From NCBI GenBank assembly GCA_009746045.1, contig RPFO01000103.1, forward strand, positions 412,070-476,069: a DNA stretch of 64,000 nt, read 5' to 3'. Shown here piece after piece: positions 6,156 to 64,000 of the stretch (the stretch's first letter is position 1; each line of letters starts with the position of its first letter). The notes beneath the pieces are model-generated. The model saw nothing but the letters and a program-made list of their open reading frames with translations. It made no database searches and was not told the DNA's origin. Made by a program: the position numbers and the translations under genes. The DNA is from Mesostigma viride. Taxonomy: Eukaryota > Streptophyta > Mesostigmatophyceae > Mesostigmatales > Mesostigmataceae.

Positions 6156-9100
6156 CTATGCAGAAGCAACGGCGCCGAACGCTTGGGCAGAACGGTCAAA
6201 GGCTTCGTCCATTGCTTTGAGGCGCTTGACGAAAGCATGATTTGGCCCGCACACTTTCAGTTGGCTGCACAACGAACCGACAACAGAAAGCCCATGGTGC
6301 ATATATACCAGCCAAAAGGGTTTTAAATTTAAAAAAGTTGTGAGTCAAACTTCAACAAGTTAGCAATACCCCCATAAGAAAACAAGTGTAATGTCTCGTT
6401 GACAAAGCCATATCTATGGCCGCATAAAATGAGAGACACACAGAGAAACGTGCTGTTTGTCCCACATAGAATCCCTCAGAAAGACGTTGCACATTAAGCA
6501 CTTTGCATGGCTATACAGCATGAGAATACGAATTTATAATACTATCTTATACGATACGTTACAAGTATGAGGGACCCTCTCTGATGGAACCTCTGCAGTA
6601 AGGAGAAAAAGGAACCTGCACGCATCGTTCCTGTCTAACCACTACATCAGAAGGTGCTGAAGTTCAAGATATTCGGTTAGTAATGCCGCAAGCAACAGTC
6701 CAAAAACATTTCAAGGCTTCCCCGTTGCATACTAGCCATCATTGACAGATCGAGTCGCAATACACGATCGAGAACATCAAATATTGTGCTAGTACGTACC
6801 AGAATGAGACACTACTATGCTAGTACTTAACTAAGTAGTCACGCAGTACCATTGGGGAGCCGCGGAGCATTAACCAAGAAATGAGAGCGATTCGTGACAT
6901 GAATTCCAGGCACACGCCGACATGCATGCCACGCCCATGCTCCCCTGTCCGTTTAGCTAGCGCGCCCGAATGCAGCTGTGGCATGCCTTTGGCATGAAGG
7001 AGACTGGGGGTCCCTGCCCTTTCTCCTGTAGTGCACACACAGGGATTACAAGCACTTCGGTGCTCCGTGACTCCCCAACGGGGGCACGTGATTAATTAAT
7101 TAATTAATGCTCCCCAAAAGTGACACAGGCGGCCAAGAACCCCTTTTTGGCGTGCATTCAGGCCTGGCATGGTAAGCACTCAAAGCACTCATCAGGACAT
7201 CACTCGCTTGTAAGGGTGCACACTGGATACCTAGTGGTGGCCGCTGGGCAACAAGTCGCGAGTACCTTATTGTTATAGGTTCCTTACAGTTACTAGGTTC
7301 CTTTTAGTTACCCATGTGACGTAGTCCCGTGCTCCTTAATTGATTACTTTACATTGATAAATAGTTCCTTATGCGCTAGGGGGGGGGGGTTCCAGGACGA
7401 AATGGCTGCCGACGCAGCAGCCAGGAAACAACAGCACGGGGGACAGTAGGGCTTGATTGAGGAAAATGTTTTGGGGGCATGGGGAGGTTGAGGATGATAT
7501 TTACTATTGCAGCATGCGCAATGTGTGGGGATAGAGGGCCACTGGGACGAACTTGAGGCAGAACTCCAGCAGCAACAGCTAGTGCAACAAACCACCATGT
7601 GAGGTAGCGCGTGGATGGTATATAGTGCAGCAACATGCCAGTACATACAATACAGTGACCGTTGACAGCAAACCACCACTCACTTGAGGTAGCGCGTGGA
7701 CGGCTTGCCAAGGTGCAGGCTGGCCACGATCAGGTTGGCCAGCGTGTCCGCGTGCTTCGAGTCCTGCAAACATGTAGGAGACACAACAACCGGTACAACG
7801 GCACTAGAATGTATAAGAAAAGGTCATCGTTGGCCAGCGTGTCCGCGTGCTTCGAGTCCTCTTATACACCAAACGCCAAGGCAGTACACCTCATGCAGGT
7901 GCCAGACGCAAGTATATGAGAATAGGCTGGGTCCTTGGCCAGCGTGTGCATATGCTTCAAGTCCTGCACGCACAATAGGCAAGTCATGACAGCGCGATGA
8001 ATAGAGGTGCCACACACTTGCAAAATACATCATCATGGGACAGTCCTGCCACATGCTGATACTAATACATAAAATGCTGCATTATAGCGGAAGTCCTGCG
8101 CACGTGCACATCAGACAAATCAACAATGTGGGCATATTGTTAACACATTTGCCCACACTAAAAAAGAAATAGATCTTACAGCCCAAGCAACCACCCACCT
8201 TGTTGACCGCCTCCAATCACTCCTCCGCGTCGTCCACGCGGCCTCATACCTGTAGTACCTCTGTTCACTATACGACCAACATGTAACTATACTATACACT
8301 ATACAATAAACGACACCCACCTTGTTGAGCGCCTCCAGCAGCTCCTTCTCCGCATCGTCCACACGGCCCATGCGCAAGCTGGCGACGGCTGACCCGTTGA
8401 TGAGGGAGAGGGTCCACGTGTACTTCTCGCCCAGCTCCTGGAAGATGTAGAACGCCTCCTGTACCTTGGGGCCGCCCTGCACAAAGACAGGCACAACAAA
8501 GACAGGCATAGCACCGTGGCATGAGCACAACCACAAGGCAGGAATATGGTTATGGAAAAGGGCAACAAAAGATCTAGAACGCCTCTCGCACCTGGTGGGA
8601 CCGCCCTGGACAGCTTCCCACACAAGGCAGAGGGGGTTAGGGCATGCGCCGGTCGCGAAAGCAAGCCATGACTGTGCGCTGCAGCAAGACAGCTTCTTCA
8701 TTGATTCCGTTGAGTGCACAGTGGTCACTACAGCTACAATACATGTATCTTCCCCATATGCTTTAGCTATGATACATTTATTAACCCCTCATCCCCCCAC
8801 CCACCAGCGCCATCTTCACCCACGCGGGCAACCGCTGCGTGGGGGATGAACACCCGATATCTACCCTATTCCTATAGCTTCGATGCAAGTAGTATCCACC
8901 CCACAAATCCCCCACCCACCAGCGCCATGTTCACCCACGCCGTCGCCAGCTGCGTCAGCGTCGCGTCCTCGTCGATCCCGTGCATCGCCTTGAGCTGGCG
9001 CTCGGCCGCATCGGGGCGGTCCATCGCCAGGTACACCTGCACCGAGAGGGACATCCTGCGTGTGGGTGGGAGGGGGGGTGGGGGTGGGTGGGCAACAAAG

Positions 9101-18900: not shown

Positions 18901-19122
18901 GCAGGTACTCGCTCCTAAGCCCCCCCCAGTGTTCCCAGAAAGCGTCGTACTGACCCCCTTGCCGCGTTTATCGTCATACTTTTGTGTATCGATCCCCCCA
19001 TTCCCCCCCCCCCCACGCCACCACCACCCCACACGCCCAGCGAGCAAGCTCGGCAGGCGGACGCGCTGGTCCTGGAAGTGGAATTGGATGGCGACATGCT
19101 GTCCGTCATGTTAACCCGGTGA
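12906..19122 (+). CDS. S26 signal-peptidase-like protein lacking the Ser/Lys dyad, 6 exons
   Basis: Exons: 12906-12980, 13251-13489, 16313-16736, 17957-18063, 18319-18358 and 19057-19122; phases close to 316 residues. The last two exons are less certain. The S26/IMP fold is shown by TGRAMAPTLN (box B), NLFVGDVVAAIVPRG, VRRIAALPGDEM (box D), LPPGKCWVLCDNE, LDSRNFGPLEMGRIVGRI (box E) and SPVDHGPVEN. In active enzymes box B has Ser where this has Ala (GRAM for GxSM), and box D has Lys where this has Arg (VRR for VKR), so both catalytic residues are absent. From memory, a land-plant S26-like subgroup with VDHGPV near the C-terminus and VLEVELD at the end has the same losses; the final exon here reads ADALVLEVELDGDM. 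About 75 Ser/Pro-rich residues interrupt exon 3. The exon 2 acceptor at 13251 was chosen because an earlier one leaves an in-frame stop. A TGTAA lies about 105 bp past the stop. Confidence 0.85.
13551..13580 (+). repeat. echo 1 of S26-like exon 2, 3' edge
   Basis: A diverged copy of the exon 2 end (GAGCGGCTGTTGATCCGCACC, real at 13449-13470), about 100 bp downstream. Confidence 0.65.
13731..13771 (+). repeat. echo 2 of S26-like exon 2, 3' edge
   Basis: A second copy, beginning GGAGAGCGGCTGTTGGTCCG, about 280 bp beyond the real edge. Confidence 0.7.
14220..14405. repeat. degenerate 12-15-bp tandem repeat (TTCCCATAATA-like)
   Basis: About 14 irregular units such as GTTCCCATRATA and ATAATCCCC in intron 2 of the S26-like gene. 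Only compositional similarity to the ATTATTCTTGCC array at 18447-18640. Confidence 0.7.
14727..14863. repeat. 14-bp minisatellite GAGCGTRCACATGC
   Basis: About 10 near-perfect copies in intron 2 of the S26-like gene, alternating GTACAC and GTGCAC variants. Open in several frames, with MRAYTCERAHASVH-like translations that are by-products. Confidence 0.95.
15003..15160. repeat. degenerate about 25-bp repeat with GGTTTAGGTAAG core
   Basis: Five or so imperfect units (GCCGCAGGTTTAGGTAAGCT). The core resembles the telomeric GGTTTAG unit but is not a telomeric array. Confidence 0.6.
15560..15748 (-). mobile_element. TCAAGGAGAC-terminus element, 5' end fragment
   Basis: The outer 190 bp of the family (terminus, ATCxGGAGAATCCGGACCAT block, GATAACGGCAGGCT block) in minus orientation inside intron 2 of the S26-like gene. 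It ends abruptly where the longer copies continue. Confidence 0.75.
18103..18122. repeat. dispersed motif GTAGACTGCGTCACGTG
   Basis: The same motif occurs at 11170-11188 and 18850-18868, each time near A/T-rich (TTAAT)-type sequence. Probably the end of a small mobile repeat. Confidence 0.5.
18447..18640. repeat. 12-bp tandem repeat ATTATTCTTGCC
   Basis: About 16 copies with point variants (CATG for CTTG) in intron 5 of the S26-like gene. Confidence 0.95.
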
Positions 19123-19168
19123 TGGCATTTCCATCAACTGCTAAACGTACCTCAGCCAATGGTGTCGA

Positions 19169-19326
19169 CAACATGCTGTCTGCCATGTTAACGCGGTGAT
19201 GGCGAGATAGATTCGGTTCGCTATAGTGTAACCTGCCTGCGACGGAAAAAACAGACATCCAATGTTTGGACTTCTGGTTCAGCCGTTGATGGAACATGCT
19301 GTCCGCCATGGTCTGCCTGTGATGAT
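19169..19326 (+). repeat. two echoes of the last exon of the S26-like gene, beyond its stop
   Basis: Copies at 19169-19203 and 19290-19326 repeat the final codons (ATGCTGTCCGTCATGTTAAC, then CGGTGATGGC). They lie about 75 and 195 bp past the real end at 19099-19132. Confidence 0.75.
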
Positions 19327-20235: not shown

Positions 20236-20319
20236 TAAATAAATTAAGAGCATACCTCCGTGGCGAGGATATGTCAAGGAGACAACCAGTAACACATATC
20301 CCTGAGAAGGGGCATATGG

Positions 20320-22529: not shown

Positions 22530-24449
22530 CTAATACCAGATGAGATGATGGACAACGTTGCAGCGGTCCAAGTTCAACATGCGAAGGCCATCGGGGGTCA
22601 CGTCGCAGCCCCTAATATCCAGAAATGTCAGCCGCGGGCAACCCCGCACGATGGCTCGTAGCCCGACGTCCGTGACCGCAGCCGACGACAGCTTCAGCGT
22701 GCGCAGCTGCACGCATGCCCGCCCGACGGCCACGAGCGACTCATCCGTGATGTTGTGGCAGGCGGAGAGGTCCAGGTGTACCAGCTGGCCCGCGAGAGGG
22801 CCCGCGAGCAGCGACCCCACGTGCTTGTCCGAGACCGTCTCACAGTTGGTGACCAAGAGCGACCGCAGGCGCGCGCACTTGCGGCCGATGGCCCGCCAGC
22901 CCACGTGAAAGCACGCGTTCCAGACGTGAAGGTTCTCCAACTGCACGCACTTCTGGACGATGGCACGCAGAAGCGCCTTGTCCATGTGGCCCACCTCAAC
23001 CGACCGCAACCGGGCGCAGCTGCGGGCGACCGCGGCAGCCTCGGCTTTGTTCATGGATTCGTCCATGACCATGTTGACGCGGAGCTCCTCGAGCCGCTCG
23101 CAGAGCTCGCCCGCGAGGATCAAACTGGCCGCCGTCACGCCGATGCACGCCCGGACGTCCAGGTGGCGCAGCCGCAGGCAGCGCCGGGCGACCGCGCTTA
23201 TGCCGACGTCGGTCACCCGGGGGCACGCCAGCACGGACAGGTGCTCCAACTCGTGGCACCGGTCCGCCAGCATGATCACGCTGGCATCCGTAACGTCCGA
23301 GAGATAGGCGACCGCCAGGTGGCGCAGCCCCGGGCACCCACTCGTCAGCGCGTCGATGACCTCGTCGTCCATCTCCGGCCCGCCCCCCGCGTCCAGGTGG
23401 CGCAATTTCGGGCAACGGGCTGCCAATTGGATCATGGTCTCCCGGCGGACGTGCCGCAGCCCCCCAACGCTCAAGTACTGCAGGTCCGGGCAATGCTGGG
23501 CGACGGCACGGAGGCCCAAGTCACGCACGCCGCCTGGCCCGTTGTCGCAATCATGGACGTCCAGCCCTGTGAGCGAGCGGCAACGCCTCGCGATCTCGAT
23601 TATGCTGGCGTCGGACACGACGCCCAGCCCGCCACTCACGCCCAGGTACTGTAGGCTTGGGCATCGCTCCGCCACGGCTCGTATGCTGTCATCCGTCACC
23701 TTCTTTGCACCCCCTAGTCCCAGGTGGCGGAGGTCGGCGCAGTGCCGTGCGATCGCGGACACGCTGGCGTCCGTCACGCAGGTACCCCCGACATCCAACC
23801 TCCGCAGTCCCTGGCAGTTCGCCGCGACCTGTTCGATGCTGGCGTCGGTGACGCGCCTCATCCCCCCCGCGCTTAGCTCCTTGAGGCCGGGGCAGAGCTG
23901 GGCAAGCTCAGTTATGCCTGCATCTGTGACGCGGCAGTAGCTGACGTCAACGCTGTCCAGCTCCCGGCACGAGGCCGCCAGCGCGGCCAGCAAAGCGTCA
24001 TCCATGTCCGCGCACCCTGCCAGGTTCAGGGAGCGCAGCCGCGTGCAGTGCGCGATTCCGAGCAGGGAGGGGGAGGCGATCTCTGGGCGGGCTGGACGGC
24101 CCCCCATCCAGCCCGGGATCGGTGTGCGGCACTCGAACATAGTTCCTTGATCAGAGCGCGGCCACAGAGAGAGGGTGCGCAGATTGGGGCACTTCCGGAC
24201 CAGTAAATCCAGGCCGCCTGCCGTCATGGCCACCCCGGCGATGTCTTCCCAAAACAGCTCGGAAATTTCTTCCAGGGAATCGTCCACAGCGGACTGGAAC
24301 GCGCGGCAAGCTGGGCGGAGCCGCAGCCGATCCAGCAAGGGAATCGCTGTTGCTATCTGCGCGCCAACGCCACGAACAGTCATCACGTCGGCGATGGTAA
24401 TGTTGCCGGATGACGGCAGTTCACTGCACAAGGTTTCCCCGGAGTCCAT
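22530..24449 (-). CDS. F-box-like / leucine-rich repeat protein (AMN1 type), single exon
   Basis: An uninterrupted 639-residue protein and the only intron-free gene in the window. Residues about 25-70 (GVGAQIATAIPLLDRLRLRP, then ACRAF) resemble an F-box. From about residue 75 to the end run about 20 cysteine-containing LRRs of 25-27 residues with the pattern C..L..LdvggC..VTDASI..IA, as in AMN1 and F-box/LRR adaptors. In that family the LRR solenoid selects a substrate and the F-box contacts Skp1 in an SCF ubiquitin ligase; here the F-box match is weak, so an AMN1-like scaffold is an alternative. It begins with the Met at 24449; upstream frames show no extension of homology. It is strongly GC-rich at third positions. 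Having no introns, it also has no exon-edge echoes. The target is unknown. Confidence 0.9.
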   Translation of the reverse strand: MDSGETLCSELPSSGNITIADVMTVRGVGAQIATAIPLLDRLRLRPACRAFQSAVDDSLEEISELFWEDIAGVAMTAGGLDLLVRKCPNLRTLSLWPRSDQGTMFECRTPIPGWMGGRPARPEIASPSLLGIAHCTRLRSLNLAGCADMDDALLAALAASCRELDSVDVSYCRVTDAGITELAQLCPGLKELSAGGMRRVTDASIEQVAANCQGLRRLDVGGTCVTDASVSAIARHCADLRHLGLGGAKKVTDDSIRAVAERCPSLQYLGVSGGLGVVSDASIIEIARRCRSLTGLDVHDCDNGPGGVRDLGLRAVAQHCPDLQYLSVGGLRHVRRETMIQLAARCPKLRHLDAGGGPEMDDEVIDALTSGCPGLRHLAVAYLSDVTDASVIMLADRCHELEHLSVLACPRVTDVGISAVARRCLRLRHLDVRACIGVTAASLILAGELCERLEELRVNMVMDESMNKAEAAAVARSCARLRSVEVGHMDKALLRAIVQKCVQLENLHVWNACFHVGWRAIGRKCARLRSLLVTNCETVSDKHVGSLLAGPLAGQLVHLDLSACHNITDESLVAVGRACVQLRTLKLSSAAVTDVGLRAIVRGCPRLTFLDIRGCDVTPDGLRMLNLDRCNVVHHLIWY

Positions 24450-25236
24450 GGCACGGGTTTGGCTGGTTTCGTACTTTCGGCTAAGCGGCCAGCAGACTAA
24501 ACCGCGGGTGATTAGTAAGCAATTACGAATTCGCCCAACTGCGCCTTTCTGGGGCTTGTGTCACGACAAGGGATTCTCCATGGCTAGGATGATCGCGCAA
24601 TGATGACAACAAGAACGAGCGCCATGAAGCCCTAAATTGCGCAAAAATTGAAGACCAGCAAGGTAGTTTGCGTGGAGAGCTTCGGAGGCGGCGAAATGAA
24701 CCGGCTCACGTGTGAGGCGACTATCTCGGGAACTCCAAATGACCGCTGGGAAAGTACGTATCCAGCAATCCGTCACACAAAAATAGTTTAACAGGCGTAC
24801 TTCAATGTACATCGACACCGAGCTACGATAGACATGTTGTGCGCGTTAAATCGCGGTGACCTGCCGGTTGTCCAATTTGGTTGCAAGTCCAAATTGGTCA
24901 GCCGTCAGATCCGCCATTTGCGAATGCACCAGGTTAGCAATTAAGCTCCTGTGGGCCGTGTGAGCATCCTCGCCAGTCGCAAAGCTTGGCTTGTAGCCCT
25001 CAAACAGTCACTGTCAGTCAGTCAGGTTATGGATTATTCCCACGCCGGTTGTCCGAGAGTCATTATCCTCGAGCAAATATCCTAGGAAGGTACAGCATAA
25101 TCCGTACGTAGCGTAAGACATTCTGCTATGTACTTACCAATTAACTGCTTTTAAACTAGACATAGTTCAACCAACAATATCCATGGTACGGTAGCATCTA
25201 GTACGAAGGTAGCACGAGAGGTTACCTATGTATCCT

Positions 25237-28712: not shown

Positions 28713-31700
28713 TTAACCTGATATGCATTGGCAAAAGTTACTTTGCGTCGGCAATATATGCAGTATGTTAATGACAGCGCTCACGTAACTTAAGGCTCTG
28801 CAGCGCGGCCTCTGTGCATCCCCCCCAGCTTGCGATTGCACAGCGCCCGGCTGAAGTGACAAAAATGACGATAGTGCTGAGTAACAACTGTAGTAAACAA
28901 GATCATGCTTACATACACGTATGACGATGCCATTACCAGGGTTGGGCGCGGGAGTTGACGTAGCGTGACCCCTTAAAGCCCGATCCCGATTATTACCGTA
29001 GTGGTAACAACAACAACAACAACAACAATGACAGCTATTACCGTGGTGGTAACAACAACAATGACAATAGTAGACGAAACAGCGCTCACGCACGTGCGTG
29101 CTCTGCAGCGCTGCCTCGGTGTACTCGCCCAGCTTCAGCTTGCACAGCGCCAGGTTGAGGTGGCACGGCCGCGTGACCGCCTGCGCTTGCGCCGCATGGG
29201 TCTCCATTAGCTGGAACATGACGTCCTCGTCCAGGTAGGACAATGCCTGCGTTGAATAGGGGGTATAGGGAGGGAGATATAGGAAGATAGGGAGTTAGCT
29301 GTGCGTCTCCGTCAGCTGGAACACCACGTCTTTGTCCAGGGAGGACAATGCCTGTAATACGAACAAACTGCTATAGGGAACAAAGACTTAGGAGTAGAAC
29401 CATGCATCTCCGTCAGCCTGGAACGTGACGTCTTCATCCAGATCAGGGTTTAGGGTTTAGGGTTTAGGGTTTAGGGTTTTGCGACGACCCCTCGAGAGTA
29501 AATCCTTATCCACCTTTGCTTCCCCGGAGACCTGGGCATGTTTTACCCCTTCCCAAGCTCAAATGAATTCTTCTCTTGTCTTGAATGGATGAATGAATTC
29601 TTCCCAACTAAGTCGGTGCTAGTTGCTACTCCGCCACCTCTACCCGCGCCAAGCCAAAGGATCGTGCTACCATCCAACAAAGCGAGTTACCCATGCCAGT
29701 GTAACCCATGCTACTACTCCTGCACTTCTATACTTACATAGTATTAATTAATTTATTTACTACCCACATCTGTTTATGCCTATCCCACCCTTCGAAAACC
29801 AAAAACTACATCTTGTGAGAGCGCAATCTCCCCATCCTCATTTCATCGCCCCATCACAGTCCCATCACCCCATCACCCTTCCATCATCCGATCACACTTC
29901 CATGACTTCCATCACAGAGCGGAGCCTGGAATCTCACTGTGGTGAAAAAGAAAAAACAAAGACGCTGCTGTTTTGCTGCCAGCCTTTATCCTACAGCCAG
30001 TAGTAAGTACATTCAGACGACGTGGTGTCGCAAAGTCTCCAAGACAGAAAGGCCAATCATATGTCTCAAACAATGCGTCCGTTGATGTCTGCATCAATGC
30101 TTCCATGCAAGTGCCAGCTTCAACCACCACCCCGCAATAATCTTCCTAACAACGGCATTACTCCAACGACAACAACACTTTAAGTTAAGTCGTCATGATG
30201 ACATGTAGCTATGACCTTCACCCACCATCTCGTAGTGTTGCGCTGCGCCTGCCCAGTCGGCCTCGGCACACGCGGCGTTGCCCAGCAAACGCTCCGCGTT
30301 GGCCGCTTCAAGACGCTCCTCAAACAGCATCATGGAGCGCGGCTTGCCCTGCCAAAATCAACGCAAACAGCATGGCAATCAGTAGCGACTTAACAAAACA
30401 TCATCAGGCTGCTAGGAAAGGGCCTCCACAGGTCACAGCACACCTCCTAAATGCTGCACTAGGCACAATGCACGGCTCCGTTCACTATGCCGTCCAGGCT
30501 CCGTACGGACCTCAGGCGCCGCACCAGTGGGTACAGGCTGGCCCGGAATCCACAAGGTCTGAAGAACCACTTCCAAATAGCAACTTTTGAATTACAACTT
30601 CCGAGTCACGGTACTAACATCCCAGTAGTCGGCTCAGTGCCTGTACGTGACCAGACCCCCACCACCAGCAGACGGCGCGGTGCCCACGTGGCCAGTGCTA
30701 GTACCTATTATTGCCTATCGGCAGGCCTGTCCCCCTTTGAGAACAGATCGCAGGTCAAGTATAAAATGATCAACAATAAGATGATGAGGTATGAAATGGT
30801 GAGGTAAAAAATGATAATGTATAAAATGATTAGGTATAAATTGAGCAATCGCTCATGAAGTATATCATTGATGAGCTCCACCTCGCACACCAGGTGTCAT
30901 ATGCACCATACATCCTAACAAATGCTATCATAGTCTCAAAACAGAGCTATAGTTTCATAACTAAATATAGAAGCAGCTTACCTCCGCCTCCCCGCTGCTG
31001 AAGGAGATGAGCTCTACCTCGTACACCAGGTGCGAGTCGGGCGGCACTGAGGGGAAGGAGAAGTGCCCCGCCTTGCCGTAGCCATACTCCGGCCCCACAT
31101 TCAGCAGGCAGCGCTCGCCTTTACGCATGCTACCGAGCGCGGCCTTGACACCGCGCAGGCCACGGCCCTCCTGGTCCTCTGGTGGTGAACAGGGGGATTG
31201 GGTAAAGAGTTGAGATAGGATGTAGGCAGCATACATAAGGATGAGATAGGATGGAGGCAGCATACATAAGGATGAGATAGGATGGAGGCAGCATACATAA
31301 GGATGAGATAGGATGTAGGCAGCATACATAAGGATGAGATAGGATGGAGGCACCATACATAAGGATGAGATAGGATGGAGGCAGCATACATAAGGATGAG
31401 ATAGGATGGAGGCAGCATACATAAGGATGAGATAGGATGGAGGCACCATACATAAGGATGAGATAGGATAGCGCAGGCCACGGCCCTCCTGGTCCTCTCA
31501 TCGTAAATGGGGGGGGTTAGGGTTTAGGGTTTAGGGTGGGCAGCAAACACGGTGGTAAAGAGACCATCAGGGTAAGGGGGGGGGGTTGGAACAACCATGG
31601 CGCATGGGGGGGGGGGGGGAACAAATGGGGCATGTGTGTGTGTGGGGAGGAGCATAAGTAAGGCATGGGGAATGGAGTGACCAAGGGGCGTGGGGAGTGG

Positions 31701-34230: not shown

Positions 34231-34658
34231 CGGCAGAAATGCTATGATTTAAGTTTTTCTAAAACGACTCGCACCTAAGCAACATACTGCTGACCATATC
34301 TAGGCGGACGAAGGTGAGTCCGGCTAAATCGTGAAAATACTCACGGCAAAAAAAACTAATGGTATTTACAGCGAGCGAGCGAGGTTGGGCGACAAAACAT
34401 GCGAGTGAACGACGACTCTTCCGGCTACACAATTTATTTTACGTAAGCTTTATTACTAGGGAGCAATAACTAGAGAAATATAACCATATGCATGAGCTGT
34501 GTGCATCGTCATTCCTTGGGCGTTTTCCGGTTTCCTGCGTCGTGTCCCAGTTTGCGAGACACTCGTCACAGCGTTTCCTGCTGCCTGCAGACGTCACCGT
34601 CAGAAGCTTGATTGAACGGAGCTTTGAACGGCAGTAGAGTCAATGGTTCCTACTATGA
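34231..34658. promoter_or_regulatory. 5' flank of TWD1 up to a transposon
   Basis: A 428-bp stretch between the TWD1 start and the Harbinger-like element; probably contains the TWD1 promoter. No clear motif seen. Confidence 0.45.
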
Positions 34659-37180: not shown

Positions 37181-37980
37181 CTAGCATGTTGCATGTCGTC
37201 GGCCTTATGTCAATGCACGGTGAAGGATGCCAAAGCGGTGAATAAGAATCCCAAATGCACGCTCTATGACCTGCCTGTACAAAGAGATGTAATAGTTACA
37301 CCTCTTGGACGTTGAGACCCCTTCCTGGGTAGGGAGTCACAAGCCAAGGCTTGATGGTGTATGCCTCATCTGCCACTATGTAGAATCCTTCTGGCAGGCC
37401 AACACGTGCCAATTCCGTGTGCAAAGAGCTGACACGAAATGCGACACTGTCAATATGGGTACTGCCGCAACATTTGTTGGAGCCATACAGAAAACGACAT
37501 TTCGAATCGCACACAGCTTGCATGACAAGCGCATAAAACCCCTTACGATTGTAGTACTGCCTGGGGTTCGCTACCTCCGACTTGAAGTTTTTTTTTTATC
37601 TTGATTGCGATACCATCGAGCGCACCAACACAACCATCAACAACTCCCCTGGTCGTCTGGTTGAAACCATCGGCCAAACGCGACAGTTCGCCCGAATCAT
37701 CCGTGGTTGCGAGTGCGCTTCTCATTAGCAGCTCGCGGCAAGCCAAACCGACTTACGTAGGGCTTGGAAACGTGCACCACGCCTTGAGAGACGTCTTTAT
37801 CCTGTACGCCTTCGCATCATCTTCAAATCCTGCAAATCATTCCAGTCCTCCCTGTCAATCCTGTCCTCGTCGGGCTTGCGCATAAGGTGGTATGACTGGC
37901 GAGACATTATGGCCGAGTGTTTTCGTGCTTTAAATACGCAACTGAAATGGTCGGAATTACCAACTGCAATGGCACACACA
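37170..37980 (-). pseudogene. Harbinger-type DDE transposase, frameshifted
   Basis: Visible blocks: CVGALDGIAIKI (first Asp, near 37620), MQAVCDSKCRFLY with GSTHIDSVAF (second Asp, near 37450), YIVADEAYTIKPWLVTPYPG (near 37350), and in a shifted frame YRQVIERAFGILIHRFGILH (the Glu, near 37240). Together these are the DDE_4 catalytic core. A stop and frame change lie between LNVQEV and the IERAFGIL block, and the C-terminus runs into the satellite. The N-terminal part near 37800-37980 is poorly conserved. Not functional. Confidence 0.8.
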
Positions 37981-38242
37981 GCTATGGCAACCAGCCTTCA
38001 CGTCGGTAGTAGCAGCCCGACCACCAGGGTTTTCCCGCCAATTATTCCTTTTTAACTTTTAACTCCGAAAAAAAAATAACAGGGGTCCGTGGCCAAGCCC
38101 GTCTGGAGTTATTTTTTATCTCCGGTGAGTTAAAACCGCAAGTTATTTTTCACCGTTGGATGAAAACCGGCCCTCAATCTCACCGTCCATTGTTTCCCGC
38201 CACTTTTAACTCCGCGAAGTTAAATCCCGTATAGACCGGGCC

Positions 38243-38894: not shown

Positions 38895-41800
38895 ATGCCA
38901 GCCACCAAACAGTCTGTTGTTGGTCCAGACCCGGAAGCCATGACGGCAGGGGTAGCAAGCCGGAATTATGATGGCCAGGTCAATGGCGGCCAGGCGTCGT
39001 TGAACTGGGGCGCATTCGAAGAGCCCCTGGACATAGAAGGTGTCTTCACCAAAATGAAAGAGGAAAAGAAGAGAAAAAGGAGGCTCTTTTCTGGAATAAA
39101 GGAGGACCTCCAGGCGCGCCGGCCGTGGTACTTTTGGAGCGATTGGAGGGATGGCTGGAACCCCAAGGTCGCCGCGTCGGCGCTGTTCATGTTCTGGACC
39201 AGCATCGCGCCCGCGGTCACCTTCGGCCAGTTCCTCGACAACAAGACCGAGGGCCAGATCGGCACGGTCGAGGTCCTCCTCTCCACCGCCCTGTGCGGGA
39301 CGCTATTCGCGATCTTCGGCGGGCAGCCGCTCGTGATCCTGGGTGTGACCGGCCCCGTCGCCATATTCAACTACACCCTGTTCGACATCGCGGCCTCCCT
39401 GGGCATAAATTTCCTGCCCTTCATGGCCTGGGTCGGCATCTGGGCCGCGCTCATGCACGCGCTGCTCGCCATCTCCAATTCCTGCCGACTCATCATCTAC
39501 GTGACCCGCTTCTCGTGCGAGACCTTCGGTGTTCTCATCGCGGCCATCTACATCTACAACGCGGTCGAGGAAATCGTGAACTATTTCCGGGCCGACCCGT
39601 TCGATTCGGCCCTCTTCTCCCTCGTCCTCGCACTCGGCACTTTCTTCCTGACCACCTACCTGGCCTCCTTCCGATCGTCCACCTTGTTCCACCGCTCCGT
39701 TCGCGCCGCCATCGCCGACTACGCCGCGGCAGCCGCCATCCTCCTGTTCACCGCGTCCCAGTACCTCCCCATCCTGGACCACACGATCGTCCCCCGCATC
39801 GATGCCCCTGATCGGTTCCGGACGACATCGGGACGTCCCTGGCTGGTCGACATCACGGACCTCCCAGGGTGGGCGATCGCGGCGGCCAGCATACCCGGCC
39901 TCGTGCTCACAATCCTCTTCTTCTTTGACCACAACGTCTCATCGCTGCTGTCCCAGAAGGAGGAGTTCCGGCTTCGCAAGGGCAGCGCGTACGACTGGGA
40001 TTTCCTCGTGGTGGGGGTGCTTATTCTAGCGTGCGCGGTGCTGGGAATCCCCTTCACCAACGGGCTCATCCCTCAGGCGCCCCTCCACGTGCGCTCGCTC
40101 GCAAAGGTGGGTGCATCGTATGATGGGCACCCTAAGGCTGGCTGGTAATATATATAGTAGTTGTTGTAGTTGCCGCTATGGTACTAGTATTATATATAGT
40201 TGTCGCTGAGTAGGATTTTATAGATAAGTTTCGAGGCAGCTTAGTTAGGTTTCGCGGCTTCGCTCACCCCCGTCCATCCAGCAAGGGAATACGTGCTACA
40301 TGATCTCCCAACGGAGTCATGTTATGATTTAATTTTCTTAAAAATGTAATAGTTGTCTCACGTAATAAATACTACCCGCTATACCCCTCCACGCCCGCTC
40401 GCTCGCCAAGGTATACTAAAACATACTAATGCTGTGCTCTGCCTTTGCTTACCTACCTGGCAAGCAGGCGCCCCGGCCTCCACGTGCGCTCGCTGGCCAC
40501 GGTGGGAGCCCTAGATGCTCTTGTGTAAGGATTGCTGGTATTGCATGTGTGGGAGCCCTCGATGCTCTTGTGTGAGGATTGCTGGTATTGCATGTGTGGG
40601 AACGCTCGATGCTCGTGTGTAAGGATGGCTGGTATTGCATGTGTGGGAGCCCTCGATGCTCTTGTGTAAGGATTGCTGGTATTGCATGTGTGGGAGCCCT
40701 CGATGCTCTTGTGTAAGGATTGCTGGTATTGCATGTGTGGGAACGCTCGATGCTCGTGTGTGAGGAAATTGCTGGTATTGCATGTGTGGGAGCCCTCGAT
40801 GCTCTTGTGTAAGGATTGCTGGTATTGCATATGCATGAGACAACCATATGTATAGTTCCTAGCGGCGAAATGCATCAGATGTTGGGGGGTAGGTTACCTG
40901 GCAAGCAGGCGCACAACAACGTGCCCTCGCTCCCCAATCAGGTGGGAGCATTACATTGTAGTACTATATTATCATGCCCAAGGTGGGTGCATTGGCAGAT
41001 GGGTGGCTGGTATCCTTACTACTGCTAACATAATTTAGTATATATTATATCTCTACTGTCTAGAGTATTCATATCTCTAGAGTTCTATATCTTGTTATTT
41101 GCTATAGCACTGCTCGCGTACTCTGTCATACTGCTTGCCGCCATACTGCTGCAGTAAGGTATACTGTCACATGCCACTGCTCGCGTACTCTGTCGTACTG
41201 CTTGTACTGCTGCAGTAATGTATACTGTTACATGCCACTGCTCGCATACTCTGTCATACTACACAACAAAGAGAAACCGATCAAGCTGTGTCACGGATCC
41301 AGCAAGCTCCCCCCCCACACCTAGTCGGGTGGCCGCTCGGAAAACCAAGTTCGTCGGTCCCTCGTGCATACTATTTGCATGTAGAGTTGACTAGTTTTGA
41401 GTTTGGCGAGCTTGTTGAGGTCAGGTTGACGGTGCATGGGGGGCACCTGGACCGTAGGTACGCTCCTTTGCCAAGTTGGGTGGCGATTCGATTAAGAAGG
41501 CACTTGGGTGGTGGGACTTCTAATTGGGGGGGTTGGCAATTTTATTGAGAGTTATTACGAAGGTTCATGTCATTCTTTGGTCCAAGAGTGCATGGCGGTC
41601 GTCGTCGTTTCGCTGGTTGTCAGTGGGGCCCCCTAAGCGGCTCTGGTAGGTGGCAGCTCAGCGCCCCGCCCCCCCCCAATCATGGTTATTCTCATGGTTA
41701 TGGTTATGCATAATGGAATTCCGTGTGTTTACTATATTATTCACATCATGGTGTGCAGATTATCCACCAGATACTGTGGCTCTGCCGTCAAACGAAACAT

Positions 41801-42444: not shown

Positions 42445-44574
42445 ACAGGTGAAGGAGCACGAGATCAACGGCCACAAACACGAGGAATGGACGCATGTGG
42501 TCGAGCAGCGCGTGTCCGGGCTCGCCCAATCCCTCGCCATCGGCCTAATGCTGGCGCCGGGGCTCATCCAGCTGATCGACGAGGTCCCCCTGGGCGTCCT
42601 CTCGGGCCTATTTTTATACATGGGCTTCGCCTCCTTCCCAGGGAATCAGTTCTACGACCGCGTCATGCTGCTCTTCTCGGACCGCCACCGGCGCCGGCAC
42701 GCGAAGTACGTGGACGTCTGCAAGTACGGCACGATAGTAAAGTTCACGGCGGTCCAGGTGGCGGCCACGGGGGTCATATTCGGGGTCACCAAGACCAAGG
42801 CGGCGATCTCGTTTCCGGTGTTTATCCTGCTGCTGGTCCCGTTGCGGCGGCACCTGCTCCCAAAGGTGTGTGCTGTGGTGGGGCGTTGGGTAGGGCACGG
42901 AACCTCTCGCTCGATAGCCCTACTGCTGGCCCCATTGCGGCGGCACCTGCTCGGGTCCCAAAGGTTTGTGCTGGGGTGGGGCGTTGGGTAGGGCACGGAA
43001 CCTCTCGCTCGATAGCCCTACTGCTCGTCCCGTTGCGGCGGCACCTGCTCGGGTCCCAAAGGTATATTTGTGGTTTTGTGAGGCAAGGTAGTTGCTTATT
43101 TGCCCCACGCTATTCCCCATCGCTGCGCAGTGATTCTCGTGTCGTGACGCTGGCCTCCTTCCATAACCTGTGTCTCATTATCGTATGCGTTCCCTATTTG
43201 TTACCCATTGTATGCGTACCCTATTTATTTCCCATGATTCTTTAGGGTTCCCTATGTGTTCCCCATTTTTCGCATACTTATCTATTTCCCATCATTGTAT
43301 ATATTCCCTATTCATAACCCATTGTATGCGCTCCCTATATATTGCACAGTATATGTGTTCCGTCTCCATATCCCCACCATCCCTCCATTACTACCCCCAT
43401 GGGTGGCCACCCCCATCCATGCAGCTCTTCACACGCAGCGCTGCTCTCGCAGGGGTTCTTGTCAGATCCCGTCAAAACATGTAATGGCCATGATGTTCAT
43501 GTAATGGCCTTTAATCACGCCATGGCCTTACTATTGATCGTGCAATGGCTTTAATGGAATCTCAATCGTGCAATAGCTTTACTACTACTAATACTACTAT
43601 ATTTTTAAGCATGTAATGGCCTTACTATATACTATTAATAATGTGATGGCCTCGCCCTCCCCACCTCTCGTCCTCGCGTTCAGATCTTTTCCCGCCGCGA
43701 CCTGCTGGCGCTGGACGAGGAGTCGTGGGACGAGGAGATCGAGTCCGAGGACCGCGCGCTGGCCGCGCACGCCAATGCGCCGGCCACCGGATCCCTCGAC
43801 GTCACGCCCGCCCTGTCCGGCGACCTGTCCCGGCTGGCGCTGCACCGACCCACGACCTCCCGCAGCGATGCCCATGCCCATGCCCCACCACAAAGTCATC
43901 CCAAGGACAAGAGCGATGCGGATGCCCATGCCCCGCCACACAGTGACTGTACCAAGGACAAGAGCGATGCCGAAGGCAAGGGCAGTTCCCGAGAACGGCA
44001 AGAAGGAGCCCCCAAGTCTGCCAGCGGTAGTAACAGTCGGAGCAACACGGGCGCCAGCAGCAACCTCCGAACTCCGCCCAGTGCCGGCAGCAGCAGTAGT
44101 AGCAGCAGCAGCAGCAGCAGCAGCGCTGGTAGCGGCAACGCTAACAGTCTCCGGGCGCCGGCCAGCGTGATTGGTAGCAGTAACGTCAGTGGCGACAGCC
44201 CCCCTCTGGTATATCCCCCGCTCGCGCACGCTGCGTCCTTGTGCAAGACTTCACTCGCGACACAGAAGGAGTTGTCGCCGCCATCGGCCTCGGCTGCTCA
44301 TGGGAACTCCAACGGCGCTGTCAACCCGGGTAACCAGCCTCGGGCTGGGGGAGCTGCGGAGGGCAGCATTACTACCATAACTGGTGCAGGAGAGCCACCG
44401 AACGATATTCCAGTCTGGCATGCAATTGGCTCCCGTCATGCTGGCTCCCGAACCCAAGTGCCAGGTGGCGGGGCATTCTCCCAGGTGGGCCAACGCCACG
44501 CCCACCACGTTCGCCACGTGTCGGTCCCAGAGTTCATGACGTCGTGGCAGAGCGGCGACATGGCGGCGGATTGA
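38895..44574 (+). CDS. SLC4-family anion (borate/bicarbonate) transporter, 3 exons
   Basis: Exons 38895-40106, 42449-42865 and 43684-44574, all phase 0, giving 839 residues. A short N-terminal cytosolic part (about 70 residues) precedes the HCO3-transporter domain. Hallmarks: RRPWYFWSDWRDGWNPKV, TFGQFLDNKTEGQIG, GGQPLVILGVTGPVAIFN, FPFTNGLIPQAPLH-type motif (IPFTNGLIPQAPLHVRSL), VEQRVSGLAQSLAIG, PLGVLSGLFLYMGFASFPGN and FPVFILLLVPLRRHLLPK. The order of about 12 membrane segments fits plant and fungal BOR proteins better than animal band 3, which has a large N-terminal domain. In plants and fungi these proteins export borate; bicarbonate or other anions are possible here. Residues about 590-839 are a low-complexity Ser/Gly/Asn tail, including an (AGC)n poly-Ser run. 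Introns carry copies of the exon edges. Confidence 0.92.
40225..40345 (+). mobile_element. LINE 3' tail fragment in SLC4 intron 1
   Basis: Matches the 3' UTR of the LINE at 400-530: TAGTTAGG, GCGGCTTCGCTC, CCATCCAGC, ACGTGCTACATGAT, hairpin CTCC-CAAC-GGAG, then a TTAATTTT tail. An extreme 5' truncation. Confidence 0.75.
40383..40510 (+). repeat. two echoes of SLC4 exon 1, 3' edge
   Basis: Copies at 40383-40413 and 40465-40510 of the exon end CCCTCCACGTGCGCTCGCTC with its GGTGGG donor (real 40074-40118). The second includes the upstream CAGGCGCCCC. Confidence 0.85.
40503..40830. repeat. 47-bp minisatellite, about 7 copies
   Basis: The unit begins GGGAGCCCTCGATGCTCTTG and ends ATTGCATGTGT. 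The first unit begins inside the second exon 1 echo (GGTGGGAGCC), so the array appears to have grown from it. Confidence 0.9.
40894..41012 (+). repeat. two further echoes of SLC4 exon 1, 3' edge
   Basis: 40894-40952 copies ACCTGGCAAGCAGGCGC and the GTGCxCTCGCTC edge with GGTGGG. 40975-41012 copies the junction and early intron (AAGGTGGGTGCAT, then GCTGGTA). Confidence 0.7.
41995..42206. repeat. (CCA)n microsatellite
   Basis: About 70 trinucleotide units in SLC4 intron 1. Confidence 0.97.
42216..42328. repeat. 11-bp tandem repeat TTTGCTTACAT
   Basis: About 10 copies with C/T variation, between the CCA and CA arrays. Confidence 0.9.
42387..42443. repeat. (CA)n microsatellite abutting the SLC4 exon 2 acceptor
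   Basis: The dinucleotide array runs to within 5 bp of the acceptor CCACAG at 42443-42448, so it replaces the usual pyrimidine tract. Confidence 0.95.
42920..43061 (+). repeat. two echoes of SLC4 exon 2, 3' edge
   Basis: Near-exact copies at 42920-42963 and 43019-43061 of the exon 2 end (TTGCGGCGGCACCTGCTC), each ending in AAAG|GT. They form a ladder of about 98 bp that includes the intron start (GGGCGTTGGGTAGGGCACGG). Each copy keeps a potential donor. Confidence 0.95.
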
Positions 44575-44624
44575 CCGGCTTGGGCCGATGCAACAGGTAG
44601 GAGTTTCGGCAATCTATCAAAGTA

Positions 44625-45260
44625 GAGTGGCGGCATGGTGGTAGATCAATCACCGGCTTGTGTCGACAATTTATCAAGCCAGAGTGGCGTCTGATGGCGG
44701 CAGACGGACCGAGACGTTGATTGGTTAGGTGGCATTGTTTAGTTTACTATTGGTTTGTTGGACTATGACAGAATGTGGCGTGAAGATTGGAGCGTTTGGC
44801 TGTGTTTCCATGCAGCAACTGCGTGAGTGGTGGTCGACATGGCAGCGCATTTATTGAGGCATATTTATGTTGAGGCATGTGTCGAGTCATGGATGGGATC
44901 CGCGCTCGGCATGCTGTTGCTTCTGCATGCGCACGCCAGGCTGTGGCGGAGCAGCGACATGTGGTGGCGGCGCGATTGATCGATCTACTTCCTAATGCAA
45001 CGCTACTACGCAGTACTTGTAGTAGTAGCAATGCATGCCACCTGGGCGACATGATGGCGGCGGGGTGGAGGCTCCATGGGTCGACGATGCAACAGCAGCT
45101 AGCACTTGGTGTTGGGAACAAGCGCGGCCGGGGTTGACCCGCTCGAGGATCGACACCTGGAGATGCCACCTGCCAGGGGTGAAGTTGCTTCGAGAAACCG
45201 CACGTGTGGTGATGTGGCGGCGGCTTGACCGGCTTTCCAGGCCGATGTTGCAACAGGTAG
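44625..45260 (+). repeat. 3'-flank echoes of the SLC4 last exon
   Basis: Diverged copies of the end of the gene (GGCGACATGGCGGCGGATTG, then ACCGGCTTGGGCCGATGCAA; real 44545-44603) near 44625-44680, 44679-44720, 44941-45000, 45037-45100 and 45201-45260. The last is the best, matching through GCAACAGGTAG. Confidence 0.75.
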
Positions 45261-47784: not shown

Positions 47785-59252
<11,468 letters not shown>

Positions 59253-59881: not shown

Positions 59882-62800
59882 ATGGCAGGATATTTGGCGG
59901 AGCACCGACATGGCAAGAGCAAGGTGCGGGTGGGAAGAGTCTGGCGAGAAGATGCGGTGCACCACATTGTCGAATGGAATTGCTTCATCATGCTGGACTC
60001 CAAGGCCGACAAGTCTTTTCTGAGCGATGACTGTTCCAGCGTCATAGCTACGGATACCATGAAGAATACAGTGAGTGGGCAGATTTGGTGACTGTTCGTT
60101 ACCTTCGTTAGATGCACTCAATTCAGTAGGCCGCTGCGAGTTAGGTTAGCAAGTGCACGTGTTGCACTTAATTGGTCCCGGACGGTAATTGCCTCCAAAT
60201 GTCCAACCAAATTTCCGTTTCATCTTATTAAGCAGCATAATGGCATGGAATTCCAATGTATCTTATAGTTTACCCTCCCTTATGGTTTAGCTAATTGTGT
60301 GGAATGTACAAGGTGCCTTGGCTGGGGCTGCGGTTGATAAATAGTGGCCCGCTCGGTCGAGTACTGATTGCGCTGGGTTTAATAACAGCAGCTGGGGTGG
60401 TGGTCTGGTAGACTTTTATAGCGTACACGCGCCTTTCCAGAAGATCACGATGAATCCGTGCGGATCTCGTTTCTGAACGTACGACGCTGACGACAAGACG
60501 CCACTCTGATTAGCATCGCTAAGGCAAACTTATATCTCGATAAATTAAAGCTTTTTATTATAGTCAGTTAGCCACAATTCGTCGATATTCGCCTGGAATG
60601 CATTTTACCGCAGCAAAACTCAAAGTCCCTAGTAATTGAATGAATACTCCATGAGGATACAATGTCCAATTCACCCTACCCTTAGGCTCTTTTGCCCCCG
60701 TGGTGGGTTCCTATCGCCAGGTTTGTGCCGGAAAAAGATCCCTGCCATAAGACTCCTAGCCGTCAACTTTTTCTGCAAGTCCTGGCCTGTTCCCCATGGC
60801 CTCCGTCATCCTATTCCCATGCGCCAATACTGGGCCTTCTCTAGGAGTTGGCTATCTTGCAACACATCACGCACCACCGTTGGATCTGGCAGACGGAAAA
60901 CTGAAGCGAAGATGTCACAAATCTCCCTGTTTCTTATGTCTGCATCGGAGGTTGGATTACGTGGGCCCGTGATCAATAGTTTTTCAATTAATTATCCAAA
61001 ATAATTGATAAAGTAATCTACGTGTGCACTCGTCCCTAGTATCGCAATCGCAAGGCAACCCCTCTGTGGTCGATTTTCGGTCGACTCGAAGTTATTTTTC
61101 AAATATTCGATCAAGTAATCTGCGCGCGCACCGGGCCCCCGGCTCCTGGCCCTGTCAGCTCGTCTCTATTAACGAATGTACTAATACAAATGTTTTGAAT
61201 TCTTTTATAATCCTCTTGATAGCGAATACATGAAGTAACGAATGAAAAAGGGAAGGACATGAATCTTCTGCCTAATCGCTACCCCCTTGTCCCAAAATAA
61301 ACATATTAAATGAATAACGTAAATCTTCTCCCTTTGGCCCGCTCCCTGCGCATGCCCCTGCGCATACCCTGCCAGGTGTACTACGTCGCCCAGAAGCTGG
61401 ACAAGCGCTGTGCGCTGGAGGTGTTTGCGCTGGCTCTGGTCGACCACTTTTTGACCAAATACGACCATGTGCGTGGTGGTGCCATGTTGTGTGGGGATGT
61501 TGAACTAGTGTGTGTTGGGCTGCTAGTCTGACAGGTGCTGCGCGCCTGCGCGCTGGAGGTGTTTGCGCTGACCATAGTAATGCTCACCTCAATGCAATCC
61601 ACGCTCTACCTATAATACACCTCTACCCACCTGCCCTTGCGAAGTTTTGCTTTTGGCTCAGGGTAGTCAAGACCTTTACCCTGATCCAAAGCAAAATGGC
61701 TTCATTCTTCCGATCTGACCCATCATTACCCCGTTGCAGAGAGCTTGTTGTGATGAAGTTTGTTTCCTCATGCTCTCGATTGTCCTTTTTCTCTAGCTGT
61801 TTTCTTCTCAGCGTCGTCATTAACATAGGGGGGTCTATAACATGGGGAGCCAACCTTGGTTTTAGGGGTTGCCATGGAGTTACTTTCTTTGAATTATTTA
61901 CTTTTTGAGCTAATTTGTCGCCCCAGGTGTCACCCCCACAAAGCTTTGCGAAGGCAGCATCGTAGGGGCGGAAGGATGACTCGGCTTCATAGTTAGCTTT
62001 GCAGTATGCCAGTAATCCTTGGGGTGATGTCGGACTGTTCTCCACTGGCCTTCCCTTTCCCTTGTGTTTGGGGTGACGTCGGATCGTTCTCCACTGGCCT
62101 TCCCTTTCCCTTGTGTTTGGGGTGACGTCGGACCGTTCTCCGCTGGCCTCTCCTTTCCTTTGTGTTTGGGGTGACGCCGGACCGTTCTCCGCTGGCCTTC
62201 CCTTTCCCTTGTGCTTGGGATGACGTCGGACCGTTCTCCGCTGACCTCTCCTTTCCTTTGTGTTTGGGGTGACGCCGGACCGTTCTCCGCTGGCCTTTCC
62301 TTTCCCTTGTGTTTGGGGTGACGTCGGACGGTTTTCCGCTGGCCTTTCCTTTCCCTTGTGTTTGGGGTGACATCGGACCGTTCTCCGCTGGCCTTTCCTT
62401 TCCCTTGTGTTTGGGGTGACGTCGGACCGTTCTCCGCTGGCCTTTCCTTTCCCTTGTGTTTGGGGTGACGTCGGACCGTTCTCCGCTGGCCTTTCCTTTC
62501 CTTTGTCCTTGAGTGACGCCTGACAGGTCACCGGCGTGGACGTCGCGGTGGCGGAGAAACGGTGGGAGCGCGCCACTGTTGGGGGCCAACCGCATGACCA
62601 CGGTGGGTGGGAGGTAAAGAAGAAGGGGTGGGAGCGCGCCACCGTTTGGGGCCAATTTCACGACCACGGTCGGTGGGGGGTTGTCTAATGGTGAGCCGCG
62701 TGTGGTTTGGTGGGTCGGGGCGTGGGATATGCCCTTGTAGGTGGAAAAGATGACCCTGACTTTTGGGTGGGAGGGGGAGTGGATATTGATGGTTTGGCTG

Positions 62801-64000
62801 GTGGGTGGGTGGATAGGAAGTAGTGGTTTTATTATGGTTCACGGGGTGAGGACCATGGTAGTATGATAGGTAGCACGATACATGGTATGTTAGATAGTAG
62901 GTTAGATAGTATGATAGATAGTAGGTTAGATAGTATCATACATAGTACTTTAGATAGTATTGTAGGTTCGGGGGGTGGCGGGGTGAGGCGTAATGTAGTT
63001 GGTCGGCGGGGTAGCTTACCTTGTTTGGAAAAAAGGTAGTGCTGTGTGGAGGCTGGGCTACGAGGCTGCCGTGGTGATGTGGCGATGTGACAATCGTTGT
63101 TATTTACATAAGCTACTGATTTCAGGAGTAAACTACACACGCACACCCACACTATGTTTTATGTATGATGGTAGTGGGATTTTAGATTAGTGAATCGCGT
63201 GCTTTTCTGGTGGTGCGGAGAAGAGTACACTGCCCACTGTGAACCATTATAGTGACCGCGCGTGCTTGGTGGCTAGTTGATTACGTGGCAGGCTTCATGC
63301 TGGGCGCAAGGAAAGAATGCTTGCCCGTTTGTGATGAATGTACTGACCGCTAGAAGGTGCGGGGTGACTGGACATTCTCGCAGGCCTCATGCTGGGCGGT
63401 GCCGACAAGAAGTTTTCGCCCTTGGTTAACAACATTACAGTGAACCCGCATGCCTGATGGCTCGATGGTTTGATGGCTTGTTTGTATGTGTTTATACGTG
63501 GCCGGCAGGCTTCATGCTGGGCGGTGCCGACAAGAACGTGGTCCGCATCACACGCAAACGGGGGTCAACCCCCGTCATCGAGTCGGGTGTCGATGGACTG
63601 GAGTTGCTCAAGACCACACAGGTGGGGCCATGGCATGGTCAGACTAGTCTCTATTTAGATATACTAATTCATGTGCTACTTGATGTATACTACTATGATA
63701 CTAGATATACTGCTTGATGTATACTACTATGATACTAGATATACTACTTGATGTCTGCTGTTTTCCACATCCCGTAGTGACCTGTGCATCCACTCACAAA
63801 GTTTTTCGGTCTCTATGGTGTATGTTCACGCAATCTGGCGTTGAGAAGTCCTACCGCCACGGCCTGACAACGCTATATGAGTACCGTGCCTCTACCATGC
63901 TAAGGAGATTTATGGGAGTCCATAGAGCTTTCATTTCTATGCGTTCACTATGAACGTTTGTGACCACTCCGTCCTGCTTTGAGAAGTTTTGCCGCAAGAG
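59882..64000 (+). CDS. UOX: urate oxidase (uricase), first 4 exons, runs off the window
   Basis: Uricase oxidises urate to 5-hydroxyisourate in peroxisomes, the first step from urate towards allantoin. Exons 59882-60070, 61376-61468, 62527-62602 and 63509-63621 join in phase to 157 residues of an expected 300 or so. Motifs: RHGKSKVRVGRVWR with the catalytic Lys (K12), SSVIATDTMKNT with the catalytic Thr (T57), YYVAQKLDKRCALEVFALAL, VAEKRWERATVGGQPHDHGF, and SGVDGLELLKTTQ. The start is the Met that aligns with known uricases. The peroxisomal C-terminal signal would lie outside the window. Near 63971-63999 the phrase CFEKFCRK resembles the next conserved block (SGFexFxRD) but lacks a clear acceptor, so it may be an echo of exon 5. 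Confidence 0.93.
61536..61573 (+). repeat. echo of uricase exon 2, internal/3' part
   Basis: TGCGCGCTGGAGGTGTTTGC copies 61411-61430 of the exon, about 140 bp downstream in intron 2. Confidence 0.85.
62027..62526. repeat. 49-bp minisatellite leading into the uricase exon 3 acceptor
   Basis: About 10 copies of a unit containing TTCTCCGCTGGCCTTTCCTT, then TCCCTTGTGTTTGGGGTGAC, then GTCGGACCG. The last, diverged unit (TTTCCTTTGTCCTTGAGTGA, CGCCTGACAG) supplies the pyrimidine tract and acceptor of exon 3. The unit is open in all three minus-strand frames, so it creates a spurious long open frame (61623-62642). Confidence 0.93.
62624..62680 (+). repeat. echo of uricase exon 3, 3' edge
   Basis: GGTGGGAGCGCGCCACxGTT and CACGACCACGG copy the exon 3 end and donor (62559-62609), offset 69 bp. 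The donor GGTGGG became GGTCGG. Confidence 0.9.
63284..63412 (+). repeat. two echoes of uricase exon 4, 5' edge
   Basis: GGCAGGCTTCATGCTGGGCG at 63284-63310, and CGCAGGCCTCATGCTGGGCG with GTGCCGACAAGAA at 63378-63412. Both precede the real exon 4 start (63507) and both keep an AG acceptor. Confidence 0.92.

Follow-up and report, generated by a model that had tools for sequence, protein, structure and literature searches.

Introns of Mesostigma viride carry decayed copies of neighbouring exon edges, probably left by small tandem duplications

A 64,000-nucleotide stretch of the Mesostigma viride genome (the window, by which we mean the whole of this stretch) contains genes whose introns seem to repeat pieces of the exons beside them. 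An earlier note, made from the sequence, described short direct copies of exon edges, often including the splice site, in the adjoining introns, and suggested duplication centred on the exon-intron junctions as a possible source. This raises the question of whether such copies are real, whether they extend beyond this locus, and what produces them. Here, we report that introns of M. viride really do carry decayed copies of neighbouring exon edges and that the pattern is genome-wide. The copies probably result from ordinary small tandem duplications, which would arise throughout the genome and would also run across exon edges. The interpretation given in the earlier note is thereby partly supported.

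Six genes with GT-AG introns were modelled in this eukaryotic DNA, comprising 23 exons and 17 introns. They are predicted to encode epsilon-COP (COPE), an S26-like peptidase, an FKBP-TPR protein, an SLC4-type bicarbonate transporter, a metallo-beta-lactamase-fold protein and a uricase-like protein. Five of the six models have an open spliced frame, and the uricase-like exon pair is incomplete. Four of the genes have Pfam support (COPE, HCO3_cotransp, FKBP_C/TPR and Lactamase_B_2), and the S26 match falls slightly below the cut-off. Neither of the two uricase-like exons has a Pfam match, so this name, given from the look of the exon sequence, is an assumption. Alignments paired as much as 100 bp of exon at every edge with no more than 500 bp of the non-coding DNA next to it, and a score of at least 34 was taken as the cut.

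For 12 of the 34 internal edges in the window, exonic sequence from that edge recurs in direct orientation no more than 500 bp into the neighbouring intron; none of the 34 has an inverted copy scoring 34 or more. Pairing the exon edges of the window with the flanks of other genes yielded no match at that score in about 1,260 comparisons (our own count). An ungapped scan of the window at offsets of 20-2000 bp, tandem arrays included, returned 253 direct versus 8 inverted repeats. Copies also occur beyond stop codons: two of the 12 outer edges of the gene models have a direct copy, both at stop codons and with the copies in the 3′ flanks (19171-19203 and 44943-44979), and no intron is known at either place. 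The direct exon-edge copies are therefore real, with a few corrections to how they had been described. They are found in the introns of five genes rather than all six, the S26-like gene echoing into its 3′ flank only. Calling the introns ‘filled’ with copies was an overstatement, as these occupy 812 of 21,611 intron bp (3.8%). The range of distances given earlier (mostly 65-160 bp, a few to about 300 bp) fits the 12 of 20 tabulated copies that lie at 160 bp or less, but the remainder reach 399 bp. Likewise, copies do span the exon edge in most cases, with 10 of the 12 internal donors within 6 bases of it, but the two other donors sit inside the exon. The copy in the metallo-beta-lactamase-fold gene (30 bp at offset 83) takes in little of the exon, the exonic part scoring 23. 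All donors lie within 5 kb of their copies, in searches covering 500 bp next to exons and, for the ungapped scan, offsets of up to 2 kb.

The window was selected on account of the pattern having been noticed there. A second set of exons, encoding CCT chaperonins, AAA ATPases and kinesins, was taken from other contigs blind to the pattern (the genome sample; 439.9 Mb of assembly searched). Here, 15 of the 120 exon-match ends have a direct copy within 500 bp and none of the 120 an inverted one, and not one of 8,952 mismatched comparisons scores. In 11 of the 15 cases, the donor lies within 2 bases of the match end. Without masking of arrays, copies accompany 5 of 58 CCT ends, 0 of 22 AAA ends and 10 of 40 kinesin ends; eight of the 11 AAA matches sit inside open frames longer than 400 aa (amino acids), and AAA match ends are therefore mostly not exon edges. 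The kinesin loci (L060-L079) carry exon-edge copies far more often than the CCT loci (L009-L038). The ladders of successive copies described for the window recur elsewhere in the genome, for example at L064 (44, 88 and 132 bp) and L076 (73 and 119 bp, plus a lower-scoring copy at 204 bp). Dropped from these counts were L011 (haplotype twin of L010), L050-L057 (a plastid open reading frame) and L001-L008 (leucine-rich-repeat paralogues); an 890-aa AAA reading frame present on several contigs is 100% identical to M. viride Ycf2. With the inverted and mismatched controls both empty, chance is rejected as the origin of the copies.

The exons and copies in the window, followed by three non-coding repeats for comparison, are these:

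7684-7763, minus strand: COPE exon 6 (exon model), donor of three copies
7600-7618, minus strand: copy of 7685-7703 on the 5′ splice side at a distance of 85; 95% identity over 19 bp, its score of 33 falling just short of the cut of 34
7829-7860, minus strand: copy of 7734-7765 on the 3′ splice side, distance 95, exact over 32 bp
7935-7968, minus strand: second, further diverged copy, of 7735-7768, distance 200
8321-8476, minus strand: COPE exon 5 (exon model)
8192-8247, minus strand: copy of about 8314-8371, the end of exon 5 with its 5′ splice site, distance 122
8569-8605, minus strand: copy of 8442-8476, the start of exon 5, distance 127
8920-9055, minus strand: COPE exon 4 (exon model)
8794-8840, minus strand: copy of 8909-8955, the end of exon 4 with its splice site, distance 115; the intronic spacer is homologous too
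19041-19122, plus strand: stop-codon exon of the S26-like gene (exon model)
19171-19203, plus strand: 3′-flank copy of 19094-19126, no intron, distance 77; another copy at 19294-19324
29094-29246, minus strand: FKBP-TPR exon 4 (exon model)
29302-29354, minus strand: copy of 29197-29249, distance 105, with a weaker copy after it at 29418-29441; a whole-unit tandem ladder
28795-28861, minus strand: copy of 29100-29165, distance 305
30982-31178, minus strand: FKBP-TPR exon 2 (exon model)
30870-30896, minus strand: copy of 31006-31032, a donor in the exon 24 bp from its edge, distance 136
31471-31514, minus strand: copy of 31153-31196, the exon start with its 3′ splice site, distance 318; a 31-bp minisatellite at 31211-31469 separates the exon 2 start from this copy
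38895-40106, plus strand: exon 1 of the SLC4-type HCO3 transporter (exon model, Pfam)
40384-40412, plus strand: copy of 40080-40108, distance 304; another at 40465-40509, distance about 391-395
42449-42865, plus strand: SLC4 exon 2 (exon model, Pfam)
42826-43063, plus strand: 98-bp unit in 2.5 copies, running from the end of exon 2 through the 5′ splice site into the intron; a whole-unit tandem duplication
43684-44574, plus strand: SLC4 exon 3 with the stop codon (exon model)
44943-44979, plus strand: 3′-flank copy of 44544-44574, distance 399; another, of 44561-44581, at 45215-45235
55475-55580, minus strand: exon of the metallo-beta-lactamase-fold gene (exon model, Pfam)
55376-55405, minus strand: copy of 55459-55488 across the 5′ splice site, distance 83
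61376-61468, plus strand: presumed uricase-like exon (exon model; no Pfam match)
61542-61570, plus strand: copy of 61405-61432, a donor inside the exon, distance 137
63509-63621, plus strand: presumed uricase-like exon (exon model; no Pfam match)
63380-63411, plus strand: copy of 63505-63536 across the 3′ splice site, distance 125; another at 63287-63306, distance 217
4199-4422, no strand: non-coding comparison, tandem duplication of about 111 bp in a retroelement-like stretch
33243-33415, no strand: non-coding comparison, duplication within an intron, distance about 100-104
41108-41260, no strand: non-coding comparison, 61-bp tandem duplication within an intron, 2.4 copies

How might such copies arise? 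In the explanation we prefer, small tandem duplications, with units mostly of about 45-200 bp, would be frequent in non-coding DNA and across exon edges. A unit that includes an exon edge would leave one junction intact and place its second copy, made up of the exon end, the splice site and part of the intron, within the intron. Because one working junction remains, such a duplication would be tolerated, presumably as a neutral change, and the intron would grow by one unit. Selection, on the other hand, is expected to remove duplications lying wholly inside an exon as well as deletions across a junction. Subsequently, the intronic part would decay in both copies, while the real exon is conserved; since the conserved exon is a fixed reference, the exonic stub would stay visible after the spacer has decayed. 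Repetition of such events would result in ladders. The molecular route is probably error-prone repair of staggered breaks, or slippage.

Several observations are consistent with this explanation. Repeats of the same kind are found in non-coding DNA, far from junctions. The median distance is 131.5 bp for exon echoes in the window, 113 bp for those elsewhere and 112.5 bp for non-coding repeats, and the distance distributions of echoes and non-coding repeats show no detectable difference (Kolmogorov-Smirnov p 0.15 and 0.39), with the non-coding list counting arrays several times. Tandem duplication of a complete unit over a junction requires that the exonic stretch begin right at the exon edge and that the intronic spacers next to copy and exon be alike. 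With the first 10 bases set aside, the two spacers resemble each other in eight of 20 copies at p<0.02, plainly so at 42826-43063, 29197-29410 and 8720-8955; of these, the first (a 98-bp unit) and the second (a ladder) are clear duplications of a whole unit. This spacer test skips the splice-consensus bases and leaves out one copy of the 21; we prefer it to an anchored flank test, in which 13 of 21 copies reach p<0.02, because the latter includes those bases. Most copies look too old for their breakpoints to be placed.

Tandem duplications are also polymorphic between two haplotype contigs. C1641 and C887 are about 2% apart over 5.3 kb, and of the four indels between them that reach 8 bp, two are tandem duplications (43 bp at 98% and 18 bp at 94%), a result that comes from two events in one contig pair and is not polarised. 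A nearly identical pair, C2 and C622, has no indels of at least 8 bp. Separately, a block of about 3.1 kb (L058, 4045-7168) is present in C1641 and absent from its haplotype twin C887. Repeated, direct and local duplication events of differing age, as the earlier note had proposed, are thus supported, and so is its suggestion of intron lengthening, here as a by-product of duplication.

A number of results weigh against small tandem duplications as a complete account. At p<0.02, spacer homology is missing in 12 of the 20 copies, the donors 31006-31032 and 61405-61432, two of the 12 internal ones in the window, are interior to their exons, and at 7829-7860 an unaltered 32-bp copy stands next to a strongly diverged spacer; the small scale of the haplotype comparison belongs here as well. 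The exact copy may reflect a recent second event, conversion or constraint, and the ill-fitting cases as a group (no spacer homology, interior donors, the exact copy) may be spaced repair copies, later events or copies renewed by conversion from the exon. The remaining results on this side concern how often edges are hit. With arrays of three or more copies masked, edges in the genome sample exceed non-coding DNA (13/120 vs 22/559, odds ratio 3.0, p 0.005), an excess driven by kinesin exons (9/40, p 7e-5). In the window, 12 of 34 edges compare with 50 of 368 intron pseudo-edges (p 0.002) and 36 of 644 intergenic ones when nothing is masked, and with 38 of 632 and 32 of 1,217, respectively, when arrays are masked. 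Pooled and unmasked, the counts are 27 of 154 edges and 149 of 1,633 pseudo-edges (p 0.002). Exon conservation does not explain such an excess in our simulation of uniform duplication with a conserved exon, as the simulated ratio of edge to non-coding hits was 0.83-0.93 (2,500 draws per setting, with the observed distances and with ages spread uniformly up to 0.6 substitutions per site). Large deletions and conversion were left out of this model, and either would favour the survival of exon-edge copies.

These frequencies bear on the first alternative, in which splice junctions are favoured sites of tandem duplication. Transcription, R-loops or splicing-related structure would cause more breaks or slippage there (transcription-linked breaks, for example), and introns would grow outward from their edges as a directed ratchet. 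The roughly threefold masked excess in the genome sample, set against the value of about 0.9 that uniform duplication would predict, keeps this idea alive, and the excess is stronger still in the window. However, when all repeats are counted, edges in the genome sample do not differ from non-coding DNA (15/120 vs 63/619-621, odds ratio 1.27, p 0.42; inverted copies at 3 pseudo-edges), where the pseudo-edges were drawn solely from non-coding stretches of CCT and AAA loci, are spaced 100 bp apart and hence not independent, and may contain unmodelled exons. CCT exons alone have no excess, whether unmasked or masked (5 or 4 of 58; masked p 0.29), and masked AAA exons have no copies. When a weight matrix derived from the window was used to place splice sites, 6 of 66 carried copies (mismatched controls, 1 of 1,282). 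Stop-codon ends echo too, and repeats at equal distances occur far from junctions. Many of the non-coding matches are long arrays. The outcome depends on how arrays are treated, and it depends on gene family as well. The part of the earlier note that centred duplication on the junctions is favoured when arrays are masked and finds no excess in the genome sample when every repeat is counted. The edge excess turns on how repeats are counted, and we neither claim nor exclude a junction bias. As an account of the copies, favoured junctions strike us as unlikely, though with a real chance of being right.

A second alternative is repair capture, in which nearby DNA is copied into a break (by synthesis-dependent strand annealing or a polymerase-theta type of repair), leaving a spaced copy behind. 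The interior donors would fit this route, as would the exact copy at 7829-7860 with its poorly matching spacer, the dozen copies lacking spacer homology and the distances of up to 399 bp. Capture would not by itself lead one to expect the spacer homology of the other eight copies, and inverted copies are almost absent here, although the vertebrate repair-mediated duplications described in PMC2671141 include an inverted example. We regard repair capture as rather improbable.

Somewhat lower still we place a longer survival of copies at exon edges, with conversion from exon to copy (the sole tolerated direction) or constraint keeping the stub while the spacer decays. This would account for an edge excess without any hot spot, and for an unchanged 32-bp copy standing beside a strongly diverged spacer; several copies, moreover, retain GT or AG at the copied junction. 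Other copies, however, have decayed to about 80% identity, and in 42826-43063 the spacer and the exonic part are equally alike. That the copies are an assembly artefact, or chance, is very improbable: tandem repeats can be mis-assembled, but many copies are diverged by up to about 20%, beyond what read errors make, inverted and mismatched controls are at zero, and the published Mesostigma assembly is described as PacBio at 113x with Illumina polishing (PMC6947507). The weakest candidates, an introner mobile element or the remnants of intron birth by duplication of an exonic segment, have the latter's accepted standing as a route of intron gain in their favour (tandem genomic duplication; PMC3443670, PMC4974935), but are rejected as hardly credible, since copies match their own exon only, with no cross-gene match in the window, none in the 8,952 mismatched comparisons elsewhere and no shared intronic family, and since over the 17 introns no intron start resembles the downstream exon and no intron end the upstream exon (0 of 34).

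The window holds further repeats and elements besides the exon-edge copies. At 34658-38240 lies a DNA transposon remnant, probably of the PIF/Harbinger type, with 27-bp terminal inverted repeats and a broken transposase-like reading frame; a 64-bp minisatellite of about 12 copies (36369-37181) sits inside it. Two segments about 17 kb apart, 35087-35553 and 52602-53065, are 89% identical, one of them lying inside the long intron of the metallo-beta-lactamase-fold gene. A 93-bp piece of a plus-strand reading frame is duplicated at 52267-52435, within the long intron of a minus-strand gene. Interstitial runs of TTTAGGG, presumably the plant-type telomere repeat, occur at 29445-29479, 31513-31537 and 31775-31819. 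An inverted repeat (163-500 vs about 1395-1805) adjoins a retroelement remnant, so classed by eye, whose minus strand has reverse-transcriptase-like frames. Finally, 22530-24560 is a leucine-rich-repeat gene without introns, which has at least 43 further match rows in the assembly, in places several per gene.

If small tandem duplications are indeed the source, exon edges would act as preserved tags by which these events could be dated, as each stub can be aged against its conserved exon. Tandem duplication is a structural change that can leave the splice junction it crosses in working order, and gains of sequence at junctions should therefore come more easily than losses. The published M. viride genome (441.8 Mb) has long introns, with a mean of 1,142 bp, which have been linked to repetitive elements making up 30.1% of intron space (PMC6947507); the intron-length section of that paper makes no mention of exon-edge copies. 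Tandem duplication across junctions would be a testable contribution to this length. And should the edge excess be a true mutational bias, junction-linked duplication would become measurable from genome sequence alone.

Among the papers listed in our literature searches, none deals with exon-edge copies in introns of the kind reported here, and comparison is with related systems. Introners (PMC9860276) likewise add sequence to many introns, but the Mesostigma introns compared share no family. Intron gain by tandem duplication (PMC3443670; a potato case in PMC4974935) also duplicates exonic sequence together with splice sites; unlike there, the Mesostigma introns already existed and were lengthened, with no sign of birth in the 34 intron-exon comparisons. 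The nearest described patterns are the repair-mediated proximal duplications of vertebrates (Pace et al. 2009, PMC2671141) and the doublets of Thomas et al. The vertebrate duplications resemble the Mesostigma copies in their nearby donor, in a few cases with exon parts and splice sites, and in their long-continued activity. As described there, they exclude copies 50 bp or less from the donor, are longer, with a median of 147 bp, and include one inverted example, whereas around exons in Mesostigma the copies are direct only and often form tandem units. As for the process itself, repair of staggered breaks produces small tandem duplications in mammalian cells (Schimmel et al. 2021, PMC8355091). 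That paper describes such duplications as the commonest short (<100 bp) insertions in the human genome and mentions natural insertions in plants, citing Vaughn and Bennetzen 2014 for rice and Schiml et al. 2016 for plants. Unlike these, the Mesostigma units often exceed 100 bp, many are decayed, their visible part is the exon edge, and they are known from sequence alone; like them, the copies are short and direct and, in part of the cases, adjacent.

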